Shown: positions 55,112 through 63,747 of the stretch, piece by piece
Position numbering within the stretch: the first letter of the stretch is position 1
Layout: each line of letters opens with the position of its first letter
Assembly: GCF_001700965.1 (NCBI RefSeq)
Contig: NZ_CP016756.1
Location: forward strand, 1,178,001-1,242,000
Direction: 5' to 3'
DNA length: 64,000 nucleotides
DNA from: Stenotrophomonas nitritireducens
GTDB lineage: Bacteria > Pseudomonadota > Gammaproteobacteria > Xanthomonadales > Xanthomonadaceae
The notes under the pieces: generated by a model
The model's database searches: none
What the model saw: only the letters and a program-made list of their open reading frames with translations
Told to the model about the DNA's origin: nothing
Made by a program: the position numbers and the translations under genes

Positions 55112-55163
55112 TAGGCCCTCACCCCCAACCCCTCTCCCGCAAGCGGGAGAGGGGAGCCTTTTT
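55112..55163. repeat. CT-rich repeat with internal hairpin
   Basis: CCCTCACCCCCAACCCCTCT, then CCCGCAAGCGGG and AGAGGGGAGCCTTTTT. It begins 14 bp past the TonB receptor stop and may be its first transcription stop. Confidence 0.7.
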
Positions 55164-55177
55164 CGCAGGCAACATTT

Positions 55178-57628
55178 TTAGAACTTCACGGTCATCTCCA
55201 GCCCGTAGGTGCGCGGGTCGGTGATGGTTGCGCCGACTACGCCCAGTGGGTCGTGGCCATAGGTGTTCAGGCCGCGCACGTACTGCTTGTCGAATACGTT
55301 GTTGGCGTACACCGCCCAGTTCCAATGCTTCAGCGGTGAGGTCCAGCCCACGCGTACATCGGTGCGCTGCTGTGATTCACCGATGTTGAGCACCTTGCTG
55401 ATGCCGCAATCCCCCTGCAGGTCGGAGCCTGCATTGCAGCGGGTGGCGCCACGGTAGGCATGACGCAGCGAGAAGCGCAGCTGACCGTTGCCGCCCAGAT
55501 CAGCGAGGTATACCGCGCCGGCCGATGCGCTGAAGCGCGGTTCGCCGGTCGGTGCCCCGTCCAGGTCAACGCCTTCCGGCGTCACGTAGTTCTTGTACTT
55601 GGAATCTATCCATTCCGCCGCCGCATCCAGGGTGAGGCCGTCGGTGACCTTCCAGCGCATGTCGAAGTCCACGCCGGTGGCCTCCAGGTCGCTGGTGTCG
55701 AACACATAGACGGGGATATCGACCGGATTGTTGGGGTCCGGGTCGATCAGGCGGATCGCCTGGCGGTTGTCGTACTGGTAATGGAACACGGACACGTTGT
55801 AGGAGAAGCGGTCGAAGCTCTGCTTCAGGCCGATTTCCAGGTTCCACACGTCCTCGTTCTCGAACGCCGGGCCGATCTGCAGCGCGTTGAAACCGCCGGC
55901 CTTGTAGCCCTTGGCCAGCGAGCCGAACACCATGGTGTCGTCGTTGAGGTGGTAGTCGACGACGAAGCGCGGGCTCCAGTCGCTCCAGCTCTTCTTGTCC
56001 CGCACCAGCTTGCCCTTGTTGGCCATGGCCGGCGGATCGATGAAGGCCATGTCGAAGGTCAACAGTTCACGGGTGATCGGGATACCCATCAGCGCCAGCG
56101 CCTGGAAGAAGCCCACTGCCTCCAGCGTGCCCAGCTTGGCCTCCAGCCCCGGCGCGTTGCGTGGCGTATTGAGCCAGCTGAAGTCCTTCTCGTCGCGGGT
56201 GTAACGCAGGCCGAAGGTCAGGTTGAGGCGATCGGTGGCCTTCCAGATGACGTCGCCGAAGGCGGCGTAGGACGTGGTGTCCAGCGTGTTGTTGAAGCGT
56301 TCGTTCCACTTTTCGCCAACCAGCGAAATCGGAATGCCGTTCATCTGTGCCAGCATCGAGGTGAAGTTGAACAGGCTGCCATCGGGTATGCCCAGCTGAT
56401 ACGCCACACCCATGTTGCGGATGATGTTGTCCACCGCCTCGGTGTTGGTATTGACCTCGCTGGTCTGGCGCGCGTCCTCGTTGAAGTAGCTGGCGCCGGC
56501 CACCCAGTCGAAGCGCTCGTTGCTGCCGGAGAACTTGAACTCCTGGTAGAAGGTTTCATTGTTCTCGGTGTTCTTCGAGTCCACGTACAGGTCGAAGCGA
56601 TTGGTACCGTCTTCCTCGGTGTGGTTGGTGGAGTCGTACTGGCGCCAGGAACTGGTGGAGGTGAAGTTGCCCCACGACAAGGCATGATCGACGATCAGGC
56701 TGACGCCATCGAAGGTGCGCCATTCGGCGTTGTCGGCATCGCTATAGGTCTTGATCTTGCGCGGGTCGAGATAGTCGTCCGGGTCCACCGGCACCGGCGG
56801 CCGCTGCGGATACGCCGGCAACGGCACGATGCCGGTGGTGACACGGCCGTTCTGGTCCAGGCTTTCATGGTCCCAGCTCACATAGGCGGTGGTGTTGTCG
56901 CCGAAGCGGGTCTGCCAGGCCGCACGCGTGGCCCAGACATTCTCGCCGCCCAGGTCCTTGCCGGTGGCACCGTCCTGGAACCAGCCGTCACTGGTGTTGA
57001 TCAGCGCATTGAAGCGCAGCGCGGAATTGTCGCCGGTGGGAATGTTCCACATCGCATCGGCGTATTTCTTGCCGTAGTTGCCCACGCGTACCGTGGCGCG
57101 CGCTTCGGTTTCGGATTGCGGCCGGCGGGTGATCAGCGAGATCGCGCCGGCTGCGGTATTGCGGCCGAACAAGGTACCCTGCGGGCCCTTCAGCACCTCG
57201 ATGCGTTCCACATCGACGAACGGCAGCAGCACGCCACCACCGCGCCCGCCGTAGACGCCATCGACGAAGATGCCCACCGCCGGATCGGTACCAATGCCGA
57301 AATCATCGGTTTCAACACCACGCAGCTTGAACGAGGGTTGGGTCGGCTGCACCGCACTGATCACCAGGCCCGGCACCAGGCTGTCGATGTCGCCCAGGTT
57401 CTCCGCCGCCACGTCATTGAGCAGGTTCTGATCGACCACCTGCAGGGCGATCGGCACATCCTGTATTTCCTGCTGCCGGCTCTGCGCGGTGACGGTGATG
57501 CGGTCAAGCGTGGTGGCAGCATCCTCCGTCGCCGACTGGGCCATTGCCGGGGCCGTTGCCCCCAACACCATCAGCCCGGCCATGGCCCGCTGCAAACCGA
57601 CTACCAGATTCCGTTGCTTCACTCGCAT
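55178..57628 (-). CDS. TonB-dependent receptor of unknown substrate
   Basis: 816-aa outer-membrane active transporter. Signal peptide MRVKQRNLVVGLQRAMAGLM...APAMAQ; TonB-box-like DRITVTAQSRQQEIQDVPIA (about residues 44-63); plug with PSFKLRGVETDDFGIGTDPA, VDVERIEVLKGPQGTLFGRN and TAAGAISLITRRP; 22-strand barrel ending EMTVKF with terminal Phe. ATG 57628 has GGAGAG upstream. It is third in an operon after a beta-helix lipoprotein and a diheme cytochrome, 34 bp downstream of the latter. The barrel is of the group often found with hydrophobic or aromatic substrates, but the substrate cannot be read from sequence. Confidence 0.92.
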   Translation of the reverse strand: MRVKQRNLVVGLQRAMAGLMVLGATAPAMAQSATEDAATTLDRITVTAQSRQQEIQDVPIALQVVDQNLLNDVAAENLGDIDSLVPGLVISAVQPTQPSFKLRGVETDDFGIGTDPAVGIFVDGVYGGRGGGVLLPFVDVERIEVLKGPQGTLFGRNTAAGAISLITRRPQSETEARATVRVGNYGKKYADAMWNIPTGDNSALRFNALINTSDGWFQDGATGKDLGGENVWATRAAWQTRFGDNTTAYVSWDHESLDQNGRVTTGIVPLPAYPQRPPVPVDPDDYLDPRKIKTYSDADNAEWRTFDGVSLIVDHALSWGNFTSTSSWRQYDSTNHTEEDGTNRFDLYVDSKNTENNETFYQEFKFSGSNERFDWVAGASYFNEDARQTSEVNTNTEAVDNIIRNMGVAYQLGIPDGSLFNFTSMLAQMNGIPISLVGEKWNERFNNTLDTTSYAAFGDVIWKATDRLNLTFGLRYTRDEKDFSWLNTPRNAPGLEAKLGTLEAVGFFQALALMGIPITRELLTFDMAFIDPPAMANKGKLVRDKKSWSDWSPRFVVDYHLNDDTMVFGSLAKGYKAGGFNALQIGPAFENEDVWNLEIGLKQSFDRFSYNVSVFHYQYDNRQAIRLIDPDPNNPVDIPVYVFDTSDLEATGVDFDMRWKVTDGLTLDAAAEWIDSKYKNYVTPEGVDLDGAPTGEPRFSASAGAVYLADLGGNGQLRFSLRHAYRGATRCNAGSDLQGDCGISKVLNIGESQQRTDVRVGWTSPLKHWNWAVYANNVFDKQYVRGLNTYGHDPLGVVGATITDPRTYGLEMTVKF

Positions 57629-57662
57629 CGCGTTCTCTCCCACGCAGTGAGGTATACCGGCG

Positions 57663-58850
57663 TCAGACCGCCGGCGGGCCCGTGTTGCCCGGCTGGCCTT
57701 CGCCCGCCGTATCGCAGTTTGTCTGCAGCGCATCGATCCATTGCCGGATCAGCGCTACGCCTTCGGTGTGCACGACCGCGCGCCCGACCTCGGGCATCAT
57801 CACCGCCGGGTCATCGCTGTCCATGCGGTAGGCGATGATCGAAGCGTCGGCATCGCCAGGCTGGATGTCGTAGCGGCGGTTGCCGGTGCCCTTGCCGGCG
57901 GCGATGGGCTGCTTGCACATGCCCAACTTCAGGTGGTCCTGGGTGGACGCATCCAGCCACAGGCCGGAGGTGATGGCCGGGCCGGTGCGGCTGTGGCAAT
58001 GCCCGCAGTTCACGTCCAGGTAGGCACGGGCACGCGCCTCCAGCGGCGCCTGCGGATTGGTGGCATCGGCCATGCGCGGCAGCTGCTCCGGCGCTGGCAG
58101 GTCTTTCAGATAGCCGAGTTTGACCAGATGCGCGAGCTGGTTGTCGCGGCCACCGGCATAGTCGAAATCGCGGTTGAGATGACGGGCCTTGGGGCCTATC
58201 GGCAGCAGCTTGCGCGAGCGGTTGTCGGTGATATGGCAGCCGCCGCATTGGTTCTGGTCCGGCACCTGGTAGGACAACGCTTCGCGTGTGCCATCGGCGG
58301 CCACCAGTTCCAGATCGACACTGGCACCGGTGCGTTGCAGGCGGGCCTCGGTCTGCGGCTCGTTCCAAACATAGGGCAAGGCCACCCAGCCTTCCTTGCG
58401 GTGGACCAGCAGCCGCGTCTCGATCAGGCGCACCTTCGACAGGTCCAGGGTTTCGCCCTGCAGCACCGATTGCGCCGGTGGCGTACGCGCCACCGATTTG
58501 CCGTCAGCCGCGCCAGCCGTGGGCAGCGGGTAATAGAAGGTCTTGCTGAGGATGGTGCCGACCGGGAAATCAAACGCATGCTCGGGCTGGTAACCCGCCG
58601 CTTGCCGCTTGGGCATCCACAGCGTGCGCAGCTTGTGCGCGTAATCACTGAACAGCGGTGTGTTCAGGTCATACGGCACCACGCCGTCGTTGAGTGACAG
58701 CCGGCCATCGCGAATGCGCAGCACATGCCACTCATCCAGCGTCGCCGGCTGGCCCTGCTCGAAAAAGTGCACCGCTTCCGGCTTGCCGCACCCGGCCAGC
58801 ACCAGCAAGGCAGCCACCAACACCATTCCCCGCACCATCAGCTTGCGCAT
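57663..58850 (-). CDS. Diheme c-type cytochrome lipoprotein (TIGR03806/SO2930-like family)
   Basis: 395 aa. Lipobox MRKLMVRGMVLVAALLVLAGC (Cys21). Domain 1 is a beta-rich region with YDLNTPLFSDYAHKLRTLWM and FDFPVGTILSKTFYYPLP; it leads to two c-type heme sites, CGGCH (202-206) and CGHCH (282-286). VMMPEVGRAV (near residue 355-364) could supply an axial Met. This layout matches a family known mostly as conserved hypothetical, usually next to a parallel beta-helix protein, exactly as here (9 bp downstream of one). Likely a periplasmic or outer-membrane electron carrier or oxidase/peroxidase. Enzymatic role unknown. Confidence 0.9.
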   Translation of the reverse strand: MRKLMVRGMVLVAALLVLAGCGKPEAVHFFEQGQPATLDEWHVLRIRDGRLSLNDGVVPYDLNTPLFSDYAHKLRTLWMPKRQAAGYQPEHAFDFPVGTILSKTFYYPLPTAGAADGKSVARTPPAQSVLQGETLDLSKVRLIETRLLVHRKEGWVALPYVWNEPQTEARLQRTGASVDLELVAADGTREALSYQVPDQNQCGGCHITDNRSRKLLPIGPKARHLNRDFDYAGGRDNQLAHLVKLGYLKDLPAPEQLPRMADATNPQAPLEARARAYLDVNCGHCHSRTGPAITSGLWLDASTQDHLKLGMCKQPIAAGKGTGNRRYDIQPGDADASIIAYRMDSDDPAVMMPEVGRAVVHTEGVALIRQWIDALQTNCDTAGEGQPGNTGPPAV

Positions 58851-58859
58851 GCCCAGGCC

Positions 58860-60098
58860 TCAACCACGCTTCAGGTCGATGGCCGGCAAGCGCGGCAGAT
58901 CGCATTCGAATGGCTTGGCGTCCTTGCTCGGGTTCTTGTAACCGCCCGGGCCATCGGCGTTGATCACGCCACTGACGTTGCGCAGGCAGATCTGCGGGCC
59001 GACCTTGACCCCGTCCACCACCCGCGCCTTGTTGTAATAGCCATCCCACAGCACGTCCGGAAAGTTGCCGGTCAGGCCGTACATCGCCAGCTTCAGCGCC
59101 TTCAGGTCCAAACCATCGGGCGAGTCGCCACCACCGGACAAGGTGTTGTTGTGAATGTAGATGCGCTCCGGGTACGGATCGAAGTTGGGCGAGGCGCTGC
59201 TGTCCTTGTAGCCGGTGGAATACACGCTGGAAACGATGATGTTGGTGGTGGCGTTGTCGCGCACCTCGTTGTCGAACACCTCGATGTCATCGTTGGAATT
59301 GATGACGATGCCCGAGCCAGCAGGCACGCTGGCCACCGGCGTGCCCTTGGCGCCGAAGTTTTCGTAGTTGTTGGCGATGACCTTGTTGTTGAACACGCGG
59401 ATGTTGCCACCCTGCTGCGACAGGCCCGGCATGTTGAACACCAGGATGCCGCCGGTATTGCCGGTGGCCACGTTGTCGTACACATCCGCATTGCGGGTGT
59501 TCTCGACCTCGATGCCGGCCACGTTCTGCTCGGCGCGGCTGTTGCGCACGATCACCCCATCAGACTGGCCGACATAGATGCCCGCATCGGAGGCACCGAT
59601 GGAGATGGTGTTCTCGATCAGCACGTTCTTGGTCAGCACGGGGTAGATGCCATAGGCGCCGTTCTTGGTGCTGGGGCCGCCGGTCCACTGCACCTTGACG
59701 CCACGGATGGTTATGTTTTCCGACTCGCTGATCTTCAGTCCGTCGCCCTTCGAGTCCTCGATGGTGAGGTTCTCGATGGTGAAGTTGTCGCCATTGACCA
59801 GCAGCCCCTCGGCGCCGGCTTTCTGCCCCTTGAAGCTGAGCACGGTCTGGTCCATGCCGGCGCCGCGCAGGGTAACCCCGTCGGCACGCAAGCTCAGGCT
59901 GCGCTCGAACTGGTGGCGGCCGGCCGGGATGTCGATCACATCGCCGGGCTTGGCATCGAGCAGGCGCTCCTGCAGCGTGGCTGCGAATGCCCCATCCGCA
60001 GCAGCGACAGCCGGCGTCTGCTGTTGCGGCTGCTTCTGGCAGCCGGACGCCAGCACGGCCAAGGTGGTGGCAACTGCCCAGGGAATGCTGCGCTGCAT
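58860..60098 (-). CDS. Parallel beta-helix repeat lipoprotein (TIGR03805-like)
   Basis: 412 aa from ATG 60098 with GGAG nine bases before; signal and lipobox MQRSIPWAVATTLAVLASGC (Cys20). Right-handed beta-helix rungs are seen throughout: LRADGVTLRGAGMDQTVLSF, FTIENLTIEDSKGDGLKISE, SENITIRGVKVQWTGG, NVLIENTISIGASDAGIYVG, SDGVIVRNSRAEQNVAGIEV, DVYDNVATGNTGGILVFNMP, IEVFDNEVRDNATTNIIVSS. Such folds are common in polysaccharide lyases and epimerases, but no catalytic set is recognised. First gene of the operon with the diheme cytochrome and TonB receptor; divergent from an AraC regulator. Confidence 0.88.
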   Translation of the reverse strand: MQRSIPWAVATTLAVLASGCQKQPQQQTPAVAAADGAFAATLQERLLDAKPGDVIDIPAGRHQFERSLSLRADGVTLRGAGMDQTVLSFKGQKAGAEGLLVNGDNFTIENLTIEDSKGDGLKISESENITIRGVKVQWTGGPSTKNGAYGIYPVLTKNVLIENTISIGASDAGIYVGQSDGVIVRNSRAEQNVAGIEVENTRNADVYDNVATGNTGGILVFNMPGLSQQGGNIRVFNNKVIANNYENFGAKGTPVASVPAGSGIVINSNDDIEVFDNEVRDNATTNIIVSSVYSTGYKDSSASPNFDPYPERIYIHNNTLSGGGDSPDGLDLKALKLAMYGLTGNFPDVLWDGYYNKARVVDGVKVGPQICLRNVSGVINADGPGGYKNPSKDAKPFECDLPRLPAIDLKRG

Positions 60099-60218
60099 GA
60101 TTCGGGACTCCATACGCCTGCCAATGTTGATTTGCAGTCTCACCTTCAGGCGGTGTTCACGCGAAGGGCAAGACCGGCATACTTGGGGGGGAAAAGCGGA
60201 CAAGCTGGAGGGGCTTGA

Positions 60219-61256
60219 ATGCAGCGCAGGAACCCGGGCGGCGACCGCCTGGCCATTGCCAATGTGCCAACCAACATGCTGTGCGGCCTGTTGCTGCTTG
60301 GCAGCGAGCTGGGCGTGGACACCGACAGCTGGCTGCTCGGGCTGCACCTGAGCCAGGACCAGCTCAACGATCCGCGCACCCGCATTTCCTACCGCCAGGC
60401 CTACGAAGTGATTCGCCGCGCCCTGCCTACCCTGCCGATGGATGCGGCCGGGCTGGCGATGGGCGGTGCGCAGAATGGCGGCAATTTCGGCCTGCTGGGG
60501 CTGGCGATGAAAACCGCGCGCACCTTTGGTGACGCCGTGCGGATCGGCCTGGACTACCAGCGCAACCTGGGCCCGTTGATGGACCTGGTTCTGGAAGAAA
60601 ACGACGCCGACACGCTGGCCGTCATTGCCACCGCGCCGGAGCAGGTGAACGATCTGCTGCCGTTCCTGTGCGAAGAGATGTTTTCCAGCATTCTGATGCT
60701 GGCCCGTGAACTGGCCGGTGATGCGTTCAGCCCGGCCGGCCTGGAGCTGAGCTACCCGGCCCCGGCCAGCATCGACCAGTATCGTGCGGTATTCCGCTGT
60801 GAACCCCGCTTCGACCAGCCGCGCAATGCGATGCTGGTGCACCGGCATTGGATGCAGCTGCCGTTCGCCAGTTACAACCCGGTGACCTCACAACAGGCGT
60901 TGTCGCTGTGCCGCGCGCAGTTGGCCACGCAGGCATCGCATGGCGAAACCACCGCGGCGCTGGAGCGCCTGCTGCGCAGCCGGCTGCGCGACAACCCGCA
61001 GATGAGCGATGCCGCACAGGCCCTGCATCTGAGCGAACGCACCCTGCGCCGGCAGCTGGCCGAGGAAGAAAGCAGCTTCAGTGAAATCCACGACCGGCTG
61101 CGCACCGAACTGGCGCTGGAGCTGCTGCAGGACGCGGAGCTGAGCATCGCCGCTGTCGGCAACCAGCTCGGCTTCAATGACGCGCGCGAGTTCCGCCGCG
61201 CGTTCAAGCGCTGGACCGGCCATACCCCCAGTGACATCCGCCGCCAACCAGGCTGA
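60219..61256 (+). CDS. AraC-family transcriptional regulator
   Basis: 345 aa. The N-terminal part (NMLCGLLLLGSELGVDTDSW to about residue 200) is the arabinose_bd-type ligand domain of the OruR/ArgR/MmsR group. The C-terminal double helix-turn-helix reads MSDAAQALHLSERTLRRQLA (about residues 264-283) and LSIAAVGNQLGFNDAREFRR ... RWTGHTPSDIRR. ATG 60219 has GGAGGGG. Divergent from the beta-helix/cytochrome/receptor operon over 120 bp, so it is the probable activator in response to the imported compound. Confidence 0.93.
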   Translation: MQRRNPGGDRLAIANVPTNMLCGLLLLGSELGVDTDSWLLGLHLSQDQLNDPRTRISYRQAYEVIRRALPTLPMDAAGLAMGGAQNGGNFGLLGLAMKTARTFGDAVRIGLDYQRNLGPLMDLVLEENDADTLAVIATAPEQVNDLLPFLCEEMFSSILMLARELAGDAFSPAGLELSYPAPASIDQYRAVFRCEPRFDQPRNAMLVHRHWMQLPFASYNPVTSQQALSLCRAQLATQASHGETTAALERLLRSRLRDNPQMSDAAQALHLSERTLRRQLAEEESSFSEIHDRLRTELALELLQDAELSIAAVGNQLGFNDAREFRRAFKRWTGHTPSDIRRQPG

Positions 61257-61828: not shown

Positions 61829-62389
61829 ATTATCCACAGCTTGTGGATACAGCAGGACACAGCCTGTGTGGATAGCACAGCAAGGTAGAGCCGAGCCATG
61901 CTCGGCTGGGGCTTTCCCGCTGCATCCGATGCGGTCTTTGTTTGTGGGAGCGGCGTAAGCCGCGAAGCAGATGCTCCAACAGACTGCAGGCAACGCCATG
62001 ATTCCAACAGCCCAAGCTTCGCGGCTGACGCCGCTCCTGCAGATGGCCGGGAAAGCACCTGCCGAGCATGGCTCGGCACTACGGGAGTCATCCACAGCTC
62101 ATGGACAAAATATCACCATGTTTTGCAGAGGCCCGCCGCGCAAGGGCTGCGCGTGCTTATCCACAACTTGTGGATGCAGCAGGACACAGCCTGTGTGGAT
62201 AGCGCGGCAAGGCTCGCCCGTGGCATTCCTGGAAATCCCAACATGATTCTGTAGGAGCGGCGTAAGCCGCGAAACAGATGGTCCGGCAGATTGCAGGCAG
62301 CGCCATGATTCCAGCGATACCCGCTTCGCGGCTGACGCCGCTCCTACAACGCGTCGGCAAAGCCCTTGCCGAGCATGGCTCGGCACTAC
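61829..62389. repeat. Composite modules 1 and 2: DnaA-box cluster + SMAG + REP pair
   Basis: Module 1 contains TTATCCACA (61830-61838), inverted TGTGGATAC (61842) and TGTGGATAG (61867), a SMAG (61885-61907), a REP pair (61944-61967 and 62016-62040) and an inverted SMAG (62060-62082), then TCCACAGCTCATGGACAAAA and ATATCACCATGTTTTGCAG. Module 2 repeats the order with TTATCCACA at 62157, TGTGGATAG at 62194, REP pair 62251-62275 / 62323-62347 and inverted SMAG 62367-62389. Spacing between modules is 327 bp. TTATCCACA is an exact DnaA-box consensus. No gene is seen in 61697-62385. Confidence 0.9.
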
Positions 62390-63027
62390 ACGACAGCTGC
62401 TGCCTGCGCGGTCGGGTTCGGGGTCGGCGCGCCGATCCTGCGCAGGGTATTGCGGTCGGTATGTGCGAACGGTTCGCTGCGGTCAGGAATGATCAGCACC
62501 GTCTCCTGCTCATAGGACCAGGTTCCATCGTCATTGATGGTGACCTGAATCTCGTAGCTCTCGGTGCGGAAGGCATGCTCCAGAAAGGGATTGGAGCTGA
62601 TGCCATTGGTCGTCGAACCGCGCTCGGCACGCAGGCGGAAGGTCTTGGCATCGGCCGCCGCCTTGCCCACCGCCATCGCGGTCTGCCCGCGCGGGATGCT
62701 CAGGGTCTGGATCAACGTACCGGTGGCAGGCTCCCACAGCCAGTAACCGACCTGATCGTGAAACGTCTCCACTTCACCGGGTTTGACGATGCGCGTGTGG
62801 TAACGCAGGCCGTAGAACAACTGCGGTCCGTTGGGCTGGGCATCAATCGGCTGCAACTCGACCCGCTCGATATACGCCTGACGCTCGGGGCCATCGGCTT
62901 TCGGGTTGACGTCCATGCCGCGCTCACCGATCCAGATGCCGGCCAACGGCGCCAGCGGCCCAAGGTTGGCCAGCGTATCGGGATCGGCGCTGGGTTCGGT
63001 ATAGATGTCTTCGGGGAACGTCGTCAT
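62386..63027 (-). CDS. Nitrobindin-like heme-binding beta-barrel protein (DUF1794/THAP4-type)
   Basis: 213-aa single beta-barrel of the FABP-like/nitrobindin family. LAPLAGIWIGERGMDVNPKA (about residues 24-43) contains the G.W.G.G motif of the first strand; LFYGLRYHTRIVKPGEVETF and FHDQVGYWLWEPATGTLIQT, SIPRGQTAMAVGKA and FLEHAFRTESYEIQVTINDD follow. The His near the barrel end could bind heme iron; nitrobindins bind or convert reactive nitrogen species. ATG 63027. Its stop TAG is formed by the GTAG of an inverted SMAG. Enclosed on both sides by the same composite modules. Confidence 0.8.
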   Translation of the reverse strand: MTTFPEDIYTEPSADPDTLANLGPLAPLAGIWIGERGMDVNPKADGPERQAYIERVELQPIDAQPNGPQLFYGLRYHTRIVKPGEVETFHDQVGYWLWEPATGTLIQTLSIPRGQTAMAVGKAAADAKTFRLRAERGSTTNGISSNPFLEHAFRTESYEIQVTINDDGTWSYEQETVLIIPDRSEPFAHTDRNTLRRIGAPTPNPTAQAAAVV

Positions 63028-63086
63028 GGGGCACAGTCCTGGGGTTATGCCGCCGATGGTACGCAGAACGTGGCACAGGCTCATCC

Positions 63087-63747
63087 CTGGCTGTCCACAG
63101 CTCGTGGACAAAATATCACCATGTTTTGCAGAGGCCCATGCGCCAAGGGCTACCACGCCTTATCCACAGCTTGTGTAGGCAGCAGAACACAGCCTGTGTG
63201 GATAGCGCAGCAAGGTAGAGCCGAGCCATGCTCGGCTGGGCTTTCCGGCGCATCCAAGGCGGCTTTGCTTGTAGGAGCGGCGTCAGCCGCGAAACAGACG
63301 GTCCAACAGATTGCAGACAGCGCCATGATTCCAGCAGCCCAAGCTTCGCGGCTTACGCCGCTCCTACAGGTAGCCAGGAAGGCCCCTGCCGAGCATGGCT
63401 CGGCGCTACGGTACTCATCCACAGCTCATGGACAAAATATCACCATCTTTTGCAGAGGCCCATGCAGCAAGGGCTGCCGCGCCTTATCCACAGCTTGTGT
63501 AGGCAGCAGAACACAGCCTGTGTGGATAGCGCCAAACAGGTAGAGCCGAGCCATGCTCGGCTGGAGCTTTCCCGGCGAATCCAAGGGCTTTTTTGTAGGA
63601 GCGGCGTAAGCCGCGAAGCTGATGGAACATCCGCAGAGCAGACATGGCTGTTGAATCATTGATAGCAGCTTCGCGGCTTACGCCGCTCCCACAAAAACCA
63701 CTGTCACTACCCCGGTAGAGCCCCTGCCGAGCATGGCTCGGCACTAC
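63087..63747. repeat. Composite modules 3 and 4: DnaA-box cluster + SMAG + REP pair
   Basis: Module 3: TGTCCACAGCTCGTGGACAA at about 63092, TTATCCACA (63160-63168), TGTGGATAG (63197), SMAG (63215-63237), REP pair (63271-63295 and 63343-63367), inverted SMAG (63387-63409). Module 4: TTATCCACA (63484-63492), TGTGGATAG (63521), SMAG (63540-63562), REP pair (63595-63621 and 63666-63692), inverted SMAG (63725-63747). Offset 324-325 bp. They lie upstream of the nitrobindin-like gene and downstream of spoT. Confidence 0.9.

Follow-up and report, generated by a model that had tools for sequence, protein, structure and literature searches.

A conserved cassette of beta-helix lipoprotein, diheme lipoprotein, TonB-dependent receptor and AraC-type regulator in Stenotrophomonas nitritireducens, with a possible P460-like heme site

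The genome of Stenotrophomonas nitritireducens (4.54 Mb, one contig) was analyzed in a window of 64 kb (NZ_CP016756.1, positions 1,178,001 to 1,242,000), whose own numbering is used for all coordinates below. It contains a four-gene cassette, the members of which are referred to by the short names BH, DH, TBDR, and AraC:

58860-60098, minus strand: BH, right-handed beta-helix lipoprotein (TIGR03805), operon gene 1 (412 aa; alternative start at 60113)
57663-58850, minus strand: DH, two-heme lipoprotein (TIGR03806, 'SO2930 family diheme c-type cytochrome'; 395 aa; structure model with a predicted local-distance difference score, pLDDT, of 91.5)
55178-57628, minus strand: TBDR, TonB-dependent outer-membrane receptor, operon gene 3 (816 aa; PF07715 and PF00593)
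60219-61256, plus strand: AraC, divergent AraC-type regulator (345 aa; PF12625 and HTH_18)
60175-60206, minus strand: candidate AraC operator AGCTTGTCCGCTTTTCCCCCCCAAGTATGCCG (conservation of 17 core bases)

The layout reported in the initial annotation, three co-directional genes with gaps of 9 bp (BH-DH) and 34 bp (DH-TBDR) and a divergent AraC gene, was found as described; AraC and BH are separated by 120 bp. The listed open reading frame (ORF) of TBDR extends to 57733, the ATG at 57628 being its likely start. The identities given to the products also stand. BH and DH carry the lipobox-like motifs LASGC and LAGC, respectively, and score 429.3 and 396.6 bits against TIGR03805 and TIGR03806, over the curated cut-offs of 141.5 and 313.3; DH contains both CxxCH heme sites (residues 202-206 and 282-286). 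TBDR comprises plug (PF07715, 59.8 bits) and barrel (PF00593, 118.5 bits) domains, and AraC combines PF12625 with a helix-turn-helix domain. The closest named relative by DH is Stenotrophomonas terrae DSM 18941 (95% identity in the best segment).

The genetic context of DH was compared in 398 genomes of the phylum (37 with DH over the cut-off) and in named genomes (the 80 best of 193 found); removal of near-duplicates left 126 DH genes scoring at least 250. Within the window's order, 50 of 51 non-redundant DH genes, mostly from Lysobacteraceae, with Tahibacter, and the window not counted, are accompanied by BH, TBDR, and AraC, the only exception lying on a 3.5 kb contig (L096). The other 75 genes include the second DH genes behind fusions in L035 and L036. 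Of these, 74 could be assessed, having enough upstream sequence or being fused: BH is adjacent in 62, fused in six and neither in six, and six ORFs encode BH and DH together. The BH-DH pair is the near-constant core, and receptor and regulator are additions. Outside the order, a related receptor (score at least 500) occurs in the locus for 11 of the 75 DH genes, including six Brevundimonas-type loci and two unclassified metagenome-assembled genomes (MAGs), L080 and L107, which possibly come from the window's order, and an AraC ortholog (score at least 200) for none. Neither gene is therefore intrinsic to TIGR03805/TIGR03806, and the linkage first proposed holds as a conserved unit of the order but not as a general rule. 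TetR-type regulators lie near BH-DH in L039, L045, L112, and L124 and, under the cut-off, in L048 (five such proteins were scanned). Judged by record titles, members of the DH family occur from Pseudomonadota to Bacteroidota and in one MAG each of Leptospiraceae and Bryobacteraceae.

Several loci of unusual architecture were encountered. In L035 (6623-11980) and L036 (7057-13255) a second DH comes after a BH-DH fusion, and a distant AraC gene is oriented divergently; ORFs recognized by eye as transposase-like lie between the two in L036. L071 (6883-12999, plus strand) codes for a 2038-residue protein with GSDH-type sugar dehydrogenase, DH-like two-heme, F5/8 type C and ThuA domains. On a Novosphingobium plasmid (L154, 3780-7572) a receptor gene beside BH-DH is annotated as two pieces flanking an IS5 transposase. 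A fatty-acid or terpene specificity was considered and set aside; DUF1302/DUF1329 genes follow DH in one locus (L123), and clusters of short-chain dehydrogenase/reductase and acyl-CoA ligase genes near BH-DH, named by eye, were judged generic.

Within the family, 99 genomes were compared, the window's own counted. DH exceeds the cut-off in 20 of them, and a TBDR ortholog (E<=1e-100, with roughly the top ten candidates of each genome scored) is present in exactly the same 20; AraC (E<=1e-40) occurs in all 20, with one far weaker copy in G092. All 19 other fetched family cassette loci contain BH, DH, TBDR, and the divergent AraC. In 18 of the 20 cassette genomes the genes recG and rid are separated by 6.2-6.7 kb, a distance that matches the cassette's length; G010 and G008 carry the cassette elsewhere. 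Among 73 cassette-free genomes with both recG and rid found, the gap is at most 414 bp in 72, the exception being G054 with an insert of 6.1 kb whose ORFs resemble an Mrp antiporter by eye. A mobile island was considered and set aside, with no search made for an integrase or repeats; one site is common to 18 of 20 cassettes, and the distribution is patchy. Some family genomes also contain a second, diverged DH-like family of about 28-30% identity (L031, 9143-10276; L033, 9289-10362; L034, 8964-10049); no BH was found near these genes, and a small CxxCH protein adjoins those in L033 and L034.

The AraC-BH intergenic region contains a conserved core, CTTGTCCG-N-AGTATGCCG. The sample comprised 59 fetched loci plus the window, about 50 of these 60 being non-redundant, after exclusion of three loci without full AraC or BH. 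At least 14 of the 17 core positions are kept in 60 of 60 regions and all 17 in 39; the spacing is 13 in 54 regions, 14 in five and 12 in one. The reversed pattern reached at most 12 positions; the maximum of 300 shuffles was 16, and of 1800 more shuffles four reached 14, none higher. At up to three mismatches the pattern occurs once in the window's genome and its reversed control not at all. Since the operator-like site is conserved at the locus and single in the genome, AraC is most likely dedicated to this operon only, with the site as its putative binding position. Models of the GliR, QhpR, and CypR type match most of AraC, which has PF12625 plus HTH_18, but AraC misses all three equivalog cut-offs; for these models, listed together, scores and cut-offs are 142.8/570, 136.1/250, and 119.9/500 bits.

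The DH protein contains two heme regions with the following features:

58083-58778, minus strand: predicted cytochrome P460/c'-beta-like heme domain, DH residues 25-256 (weak PF16694 matches in relatives, profile alignment)
58542-58568, minus strand: FPVGTILSK motif, with Lys103 (58542-58544) at the position of the P460 heme-crosslink lysine (aligned with P460 PDGTILAK)
58413-58421, minus strand: Glu144-Thr145-Arg146, candidate distal-pocket strand (invariant in 52 of 52 sequences)
58233-58247, minus strand: heme motif 1, CGGCH, DH residues 202-206
57723-58058, minus strand: C-terminal cytochrome c-like domain, DH residues about 265-376 (weak Cytochrom_C and PSCyt1 matches in members; model largely helical)
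57993-58007, minus strand: heme motif 2, CGHCH, DH residues 282-286 (invariant)

The N-terminal half appears to resemble cytochrome P460 in its predicted fold. It also shares with P460 the sequence of elements, a lysine motif, then a GW-containing strand, then CxxCH, as well as the lysine at the crosslink position. In cytochrome P460 the heme-crosslinking residue is Lys106 (Lys70 in N. europaea), as tabulated in PMC11928373 (Table 2). Lys103 of DH, its probable counterpart by alignment, is invariant in the DH set (52/52), in a second, overlapping set (86/86) and in diverged relatives (8/8); in the P460 family itself, 14 of 25 sequences have a lysine there, and the lysine of L177 (residue 110) is paired in the alignment with residue 106 of PDB 6amg. 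The Glu144-Thr145-Arg146 triplet lies on the next long strand after the Lys103 motif in the DH model and is kept in six of the eight diverged relatives, the others having ETS and TTS. The two active P460 enzymes possess a distal Glu96 or Asp102 according to the same table; one alignment puts Arg146 at the Glu96 place, with the invariant Glu144 two residues earlier, and either residue may occupy it.

DH departs from cytochrome P460 in its insertions, second cytochrome c domain and lipid anchor. It was not filed as a cytochrome P460, since it falls short of the Pfam cut-off: PF16694 (gathering score 27 bits) gave no match to the window's DH at E<=1, and the best of ten members scanned singly reached 17.6 bits. 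DH alone had no match in the PDB by sequence, and its model none in Foldseek at E<=0.001. Within the class, PF16694 proteins are common, being present in 30 of 143 genomes. In its second half, DH has CxxCH (residues 282-286) and an invariant Met352-Pro353. A CxxCH followed by Met-Pro is the usual layout of class I cytochromes c, and the invariance of Met352 (57795-57797) suggests that it is likely the second axial ligand of heme 2.

These features are consistent with a tentative reading, to which we give close to an even chance, that the locus encodes a dedicated outer-membrane cassette under AraC control with BH-DH as its core, in which DH is a P460-like heme enzyme provided with its own cytochrome c outlet. 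The N-terminal heme site of the membrane-anchored lipoprotein DH would have its lysine placed for a crosslink to the heme and the invariant Glu/Arg on a strand over the distal face. Substrate would be oxidized, or bound and then oxidized, at this heme, and the electrons would leave through the C-terminal class I cytochrome c domain. BH, an AlgE/NosD-like beta-helix sometimes fused to DH, may hold or present the substrate. In Xanthomonadales, import of substrate or product would fall to the TonB receptor, while AraC would sense one of them and turn on the operon from one operator. By analogy with P460 enzymes, our guess for the substrate is a small organic molecule, an N-hydroxy compound or something similar.

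The initial annotation had the receptor import a compound, the lipoproteins process or oxidize it and AraC sense it. The oxidation role of DH in that scheme is strengthened by the predicted P460-like domain, and dedicated regulation fits the single conserved operator-like site, while the linkage of receptor and AraC to the pair is not general. A wider proposal, possible but held with more doubt than belief, is that TIGR03806 is a new, widespread branch of lysine-crosslinked P460-type surface enzymes with their own cytochrome c outlet and a beta-helix partner, acting on an organic substrate far from nitrification, to which Xanthomonadales add the receptor and AraC sensor as a regulated import-and-oxidize cassette. 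One result weighs against both proposals: the subset of P460 sequences whose profile fits DH best lacks the lysine. Our confidence in both was lowered for this reason, and that in a c'-beta-like function of DH was raised.

The best surviving alternative, although unlikely, is that DH is a mere electron carrier for a quinoprotein or other alcohol or sugar dehydrogenase, the BH-DH pair serving alcohol or aldehyde oxidation and the receptor importing the alcohol or its acid. An aldehyde dehydrogenase (ALDH) gene follows DH in seven of seven Brevundimonas-type loci, between DH and receptor in the six whose contig reaches the receptor, and a related one follows the receptor in MAG L107. The Novosphingobium plasmid groups genes for ALDH, AdhP, receptors, BH, DH, ALDH, AraC, and pyrroloquinoline quinone (PQQ) dehydrogenase, and in the fusion protein of L071 the DH-like domain comes after a GSDH-type domain. 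In G008, whose cassette lies elsewhere, the recG-rid site is occupied by an ALDH gene (L156, 954-2378, plus strand), which shares 37-40% identity with the ALDHs encoded in BH-DH operons of the Brevundimonas type and 50% with an ALDH of L107. However, related ALDHs near BH-DH are confined to few loci, the Brevundimonas-type ones being closely related to each other; most BH-DH loci have none, and the window's cassette lacks any dehydrogenase gene. Nor is it obvious why a pure carrier with a P460-like fold should keep its lysine and Glu/Arg invariant. These aldehyde and alcohol dehydrogenase neighbors provide one hint at the substrate, found in a minority of loci and perhaps specific to certain lineages.

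It is distinctly unlikely that DH serves as a stress protein that binds gas or acts like a peroxidase, a role proposed for cytochromes c'-beta, with the cassette answering nitric oxide or peroxide. The P460 subset without the lysine, mentioned above, speaks for such a function. However, characterized c'-beta proteins carry Met or Phe at the place of the crosslink lysine (PMC11928373, Table 2), whereas DH keeps the lysine, and the four sequences with Phe there have the weakest profile match (4.8%). A TonB receptor would also have no evident role in such a response.

Iron or xenosiderophore uptake, in which the receptor would import a siderophore, AraC sense it and DH reduce or degrade it, is very unlikely. 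AraC regulators of siderophore receptors are common, and many siderophore receptors are among the nearest solved receptors of TBDR by sequence. The initial annotation had named a known siderophore receptor as nearest characterized relative as a finding that would speak against its scheme. The nearest solved receptor is indeed of this kind, the pesticin receptor 4epa (60.5 bits, over residues 28-229 only), but TBDR stays under the cut-off of the siderophore-receptor model TIGR01783 (155.7 of 223.5 bits). Moreover, the four-gene cassette lacks transporter and siderophore genes, and BH-DH is mostly receptor-free outside the window's order.

The closest folds of BH are those of mannuronan epimerases and polysaccharide lyases; by sequence, BH alone gave a single weak PDB match (E 0.072). 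The catalytic residues of the AlgE mannuronan C-5 epimerase A-module are Tyr149, Asp152, His154, and Asp178; Asp152 and His154 are among those named in PMC7385640. BH residues 149-154 read YGIYPV, so that Tyr152 and Val154 would stand at AlgE Asp152 and His154 if the YGxxP stretches of the two proteins correspond, a site outside the computed alignments. Two catalytic residues appear to be replaced, and no sequence-level match spans the active site. BH also misses the cut-off of the NosD model TIGR04247 (40.4 of 300 bits), and no nos gene is among the four of the cassette. The least probable of the alternatives, with only a slight chance, is that BH modifies a polysaccharide and DH oxidizes the released sugar at the cell surface: the nearest folds and the F5/8 type C and ThuA domains of the DH-like fusion in L071 favor it, but the AlgE residues appear exchanged and the same fold occurs in NosD, phage tail spikes and an adhesin.

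SO2930 or SO2931 is named as a cytochrome of the Shewanella outer membrane in PMC5357785, PMC10986466, PMC5955497, and PMC4837345. One search brought up TIGR03805 alone, in two papers. The open-licence literature searched yielded no functional account of TIGR03805, TIGR03806 or SO2930, in keeping with the earlier remark that these families lack an assigned function, and none linking TIGR03806 to P460; the main text of the P460 review PMC11928373 does not contain the words diheme, fusion or fused. While the pair is known elsewhere, and BH and DH adjoin each other here as in most relatives, in the window it is tied to a TonB receptor, AraC and a conserved operator-like site, AraC orthologs being seen in the window's order only. 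The P460 enzymes characterized in PMC11928373 come from nitrifiers and a methanotroph; a P460-like active site in DH, if true, would mean that ordinary heterotrophs use P460 chemistry too, in a protein that includes the electron acceptor. The apparent resemblance of DH to cytochrome P460 joined to a cytochrome c gives a first testable idea of TIGR03806 function, and since the cassette has a single regulator and a single operator-like site, a screen for inducers could lead to the substrate.

The remaining features of the window are minor. No Rfam family reached its gathering score in the window, and the tRNA scan was likewise empty. One further element lies just past the TBDR gene:

55129-55154, plus strand: inverted repeat of 11 pairs with a T-run on the plus strand, possible terminator

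This candidate is weak, because six such sites were found in the region against 5.1 expected. A THAP4/nitrobindin-like heme-binding domain protein (PF08768) is encoded near the cassette, just past rid (62386-63156, minus strand); among the 19 fetched family cassette loci its gene is present in the same-genus genome only (L025). Between 61778 and 63662 the ORF translations of both strands repeat phrases such as RSGVSRE, as seen by eye, which suggests that short interspersed repeats are clustered around the gene of the heme-binding protein.

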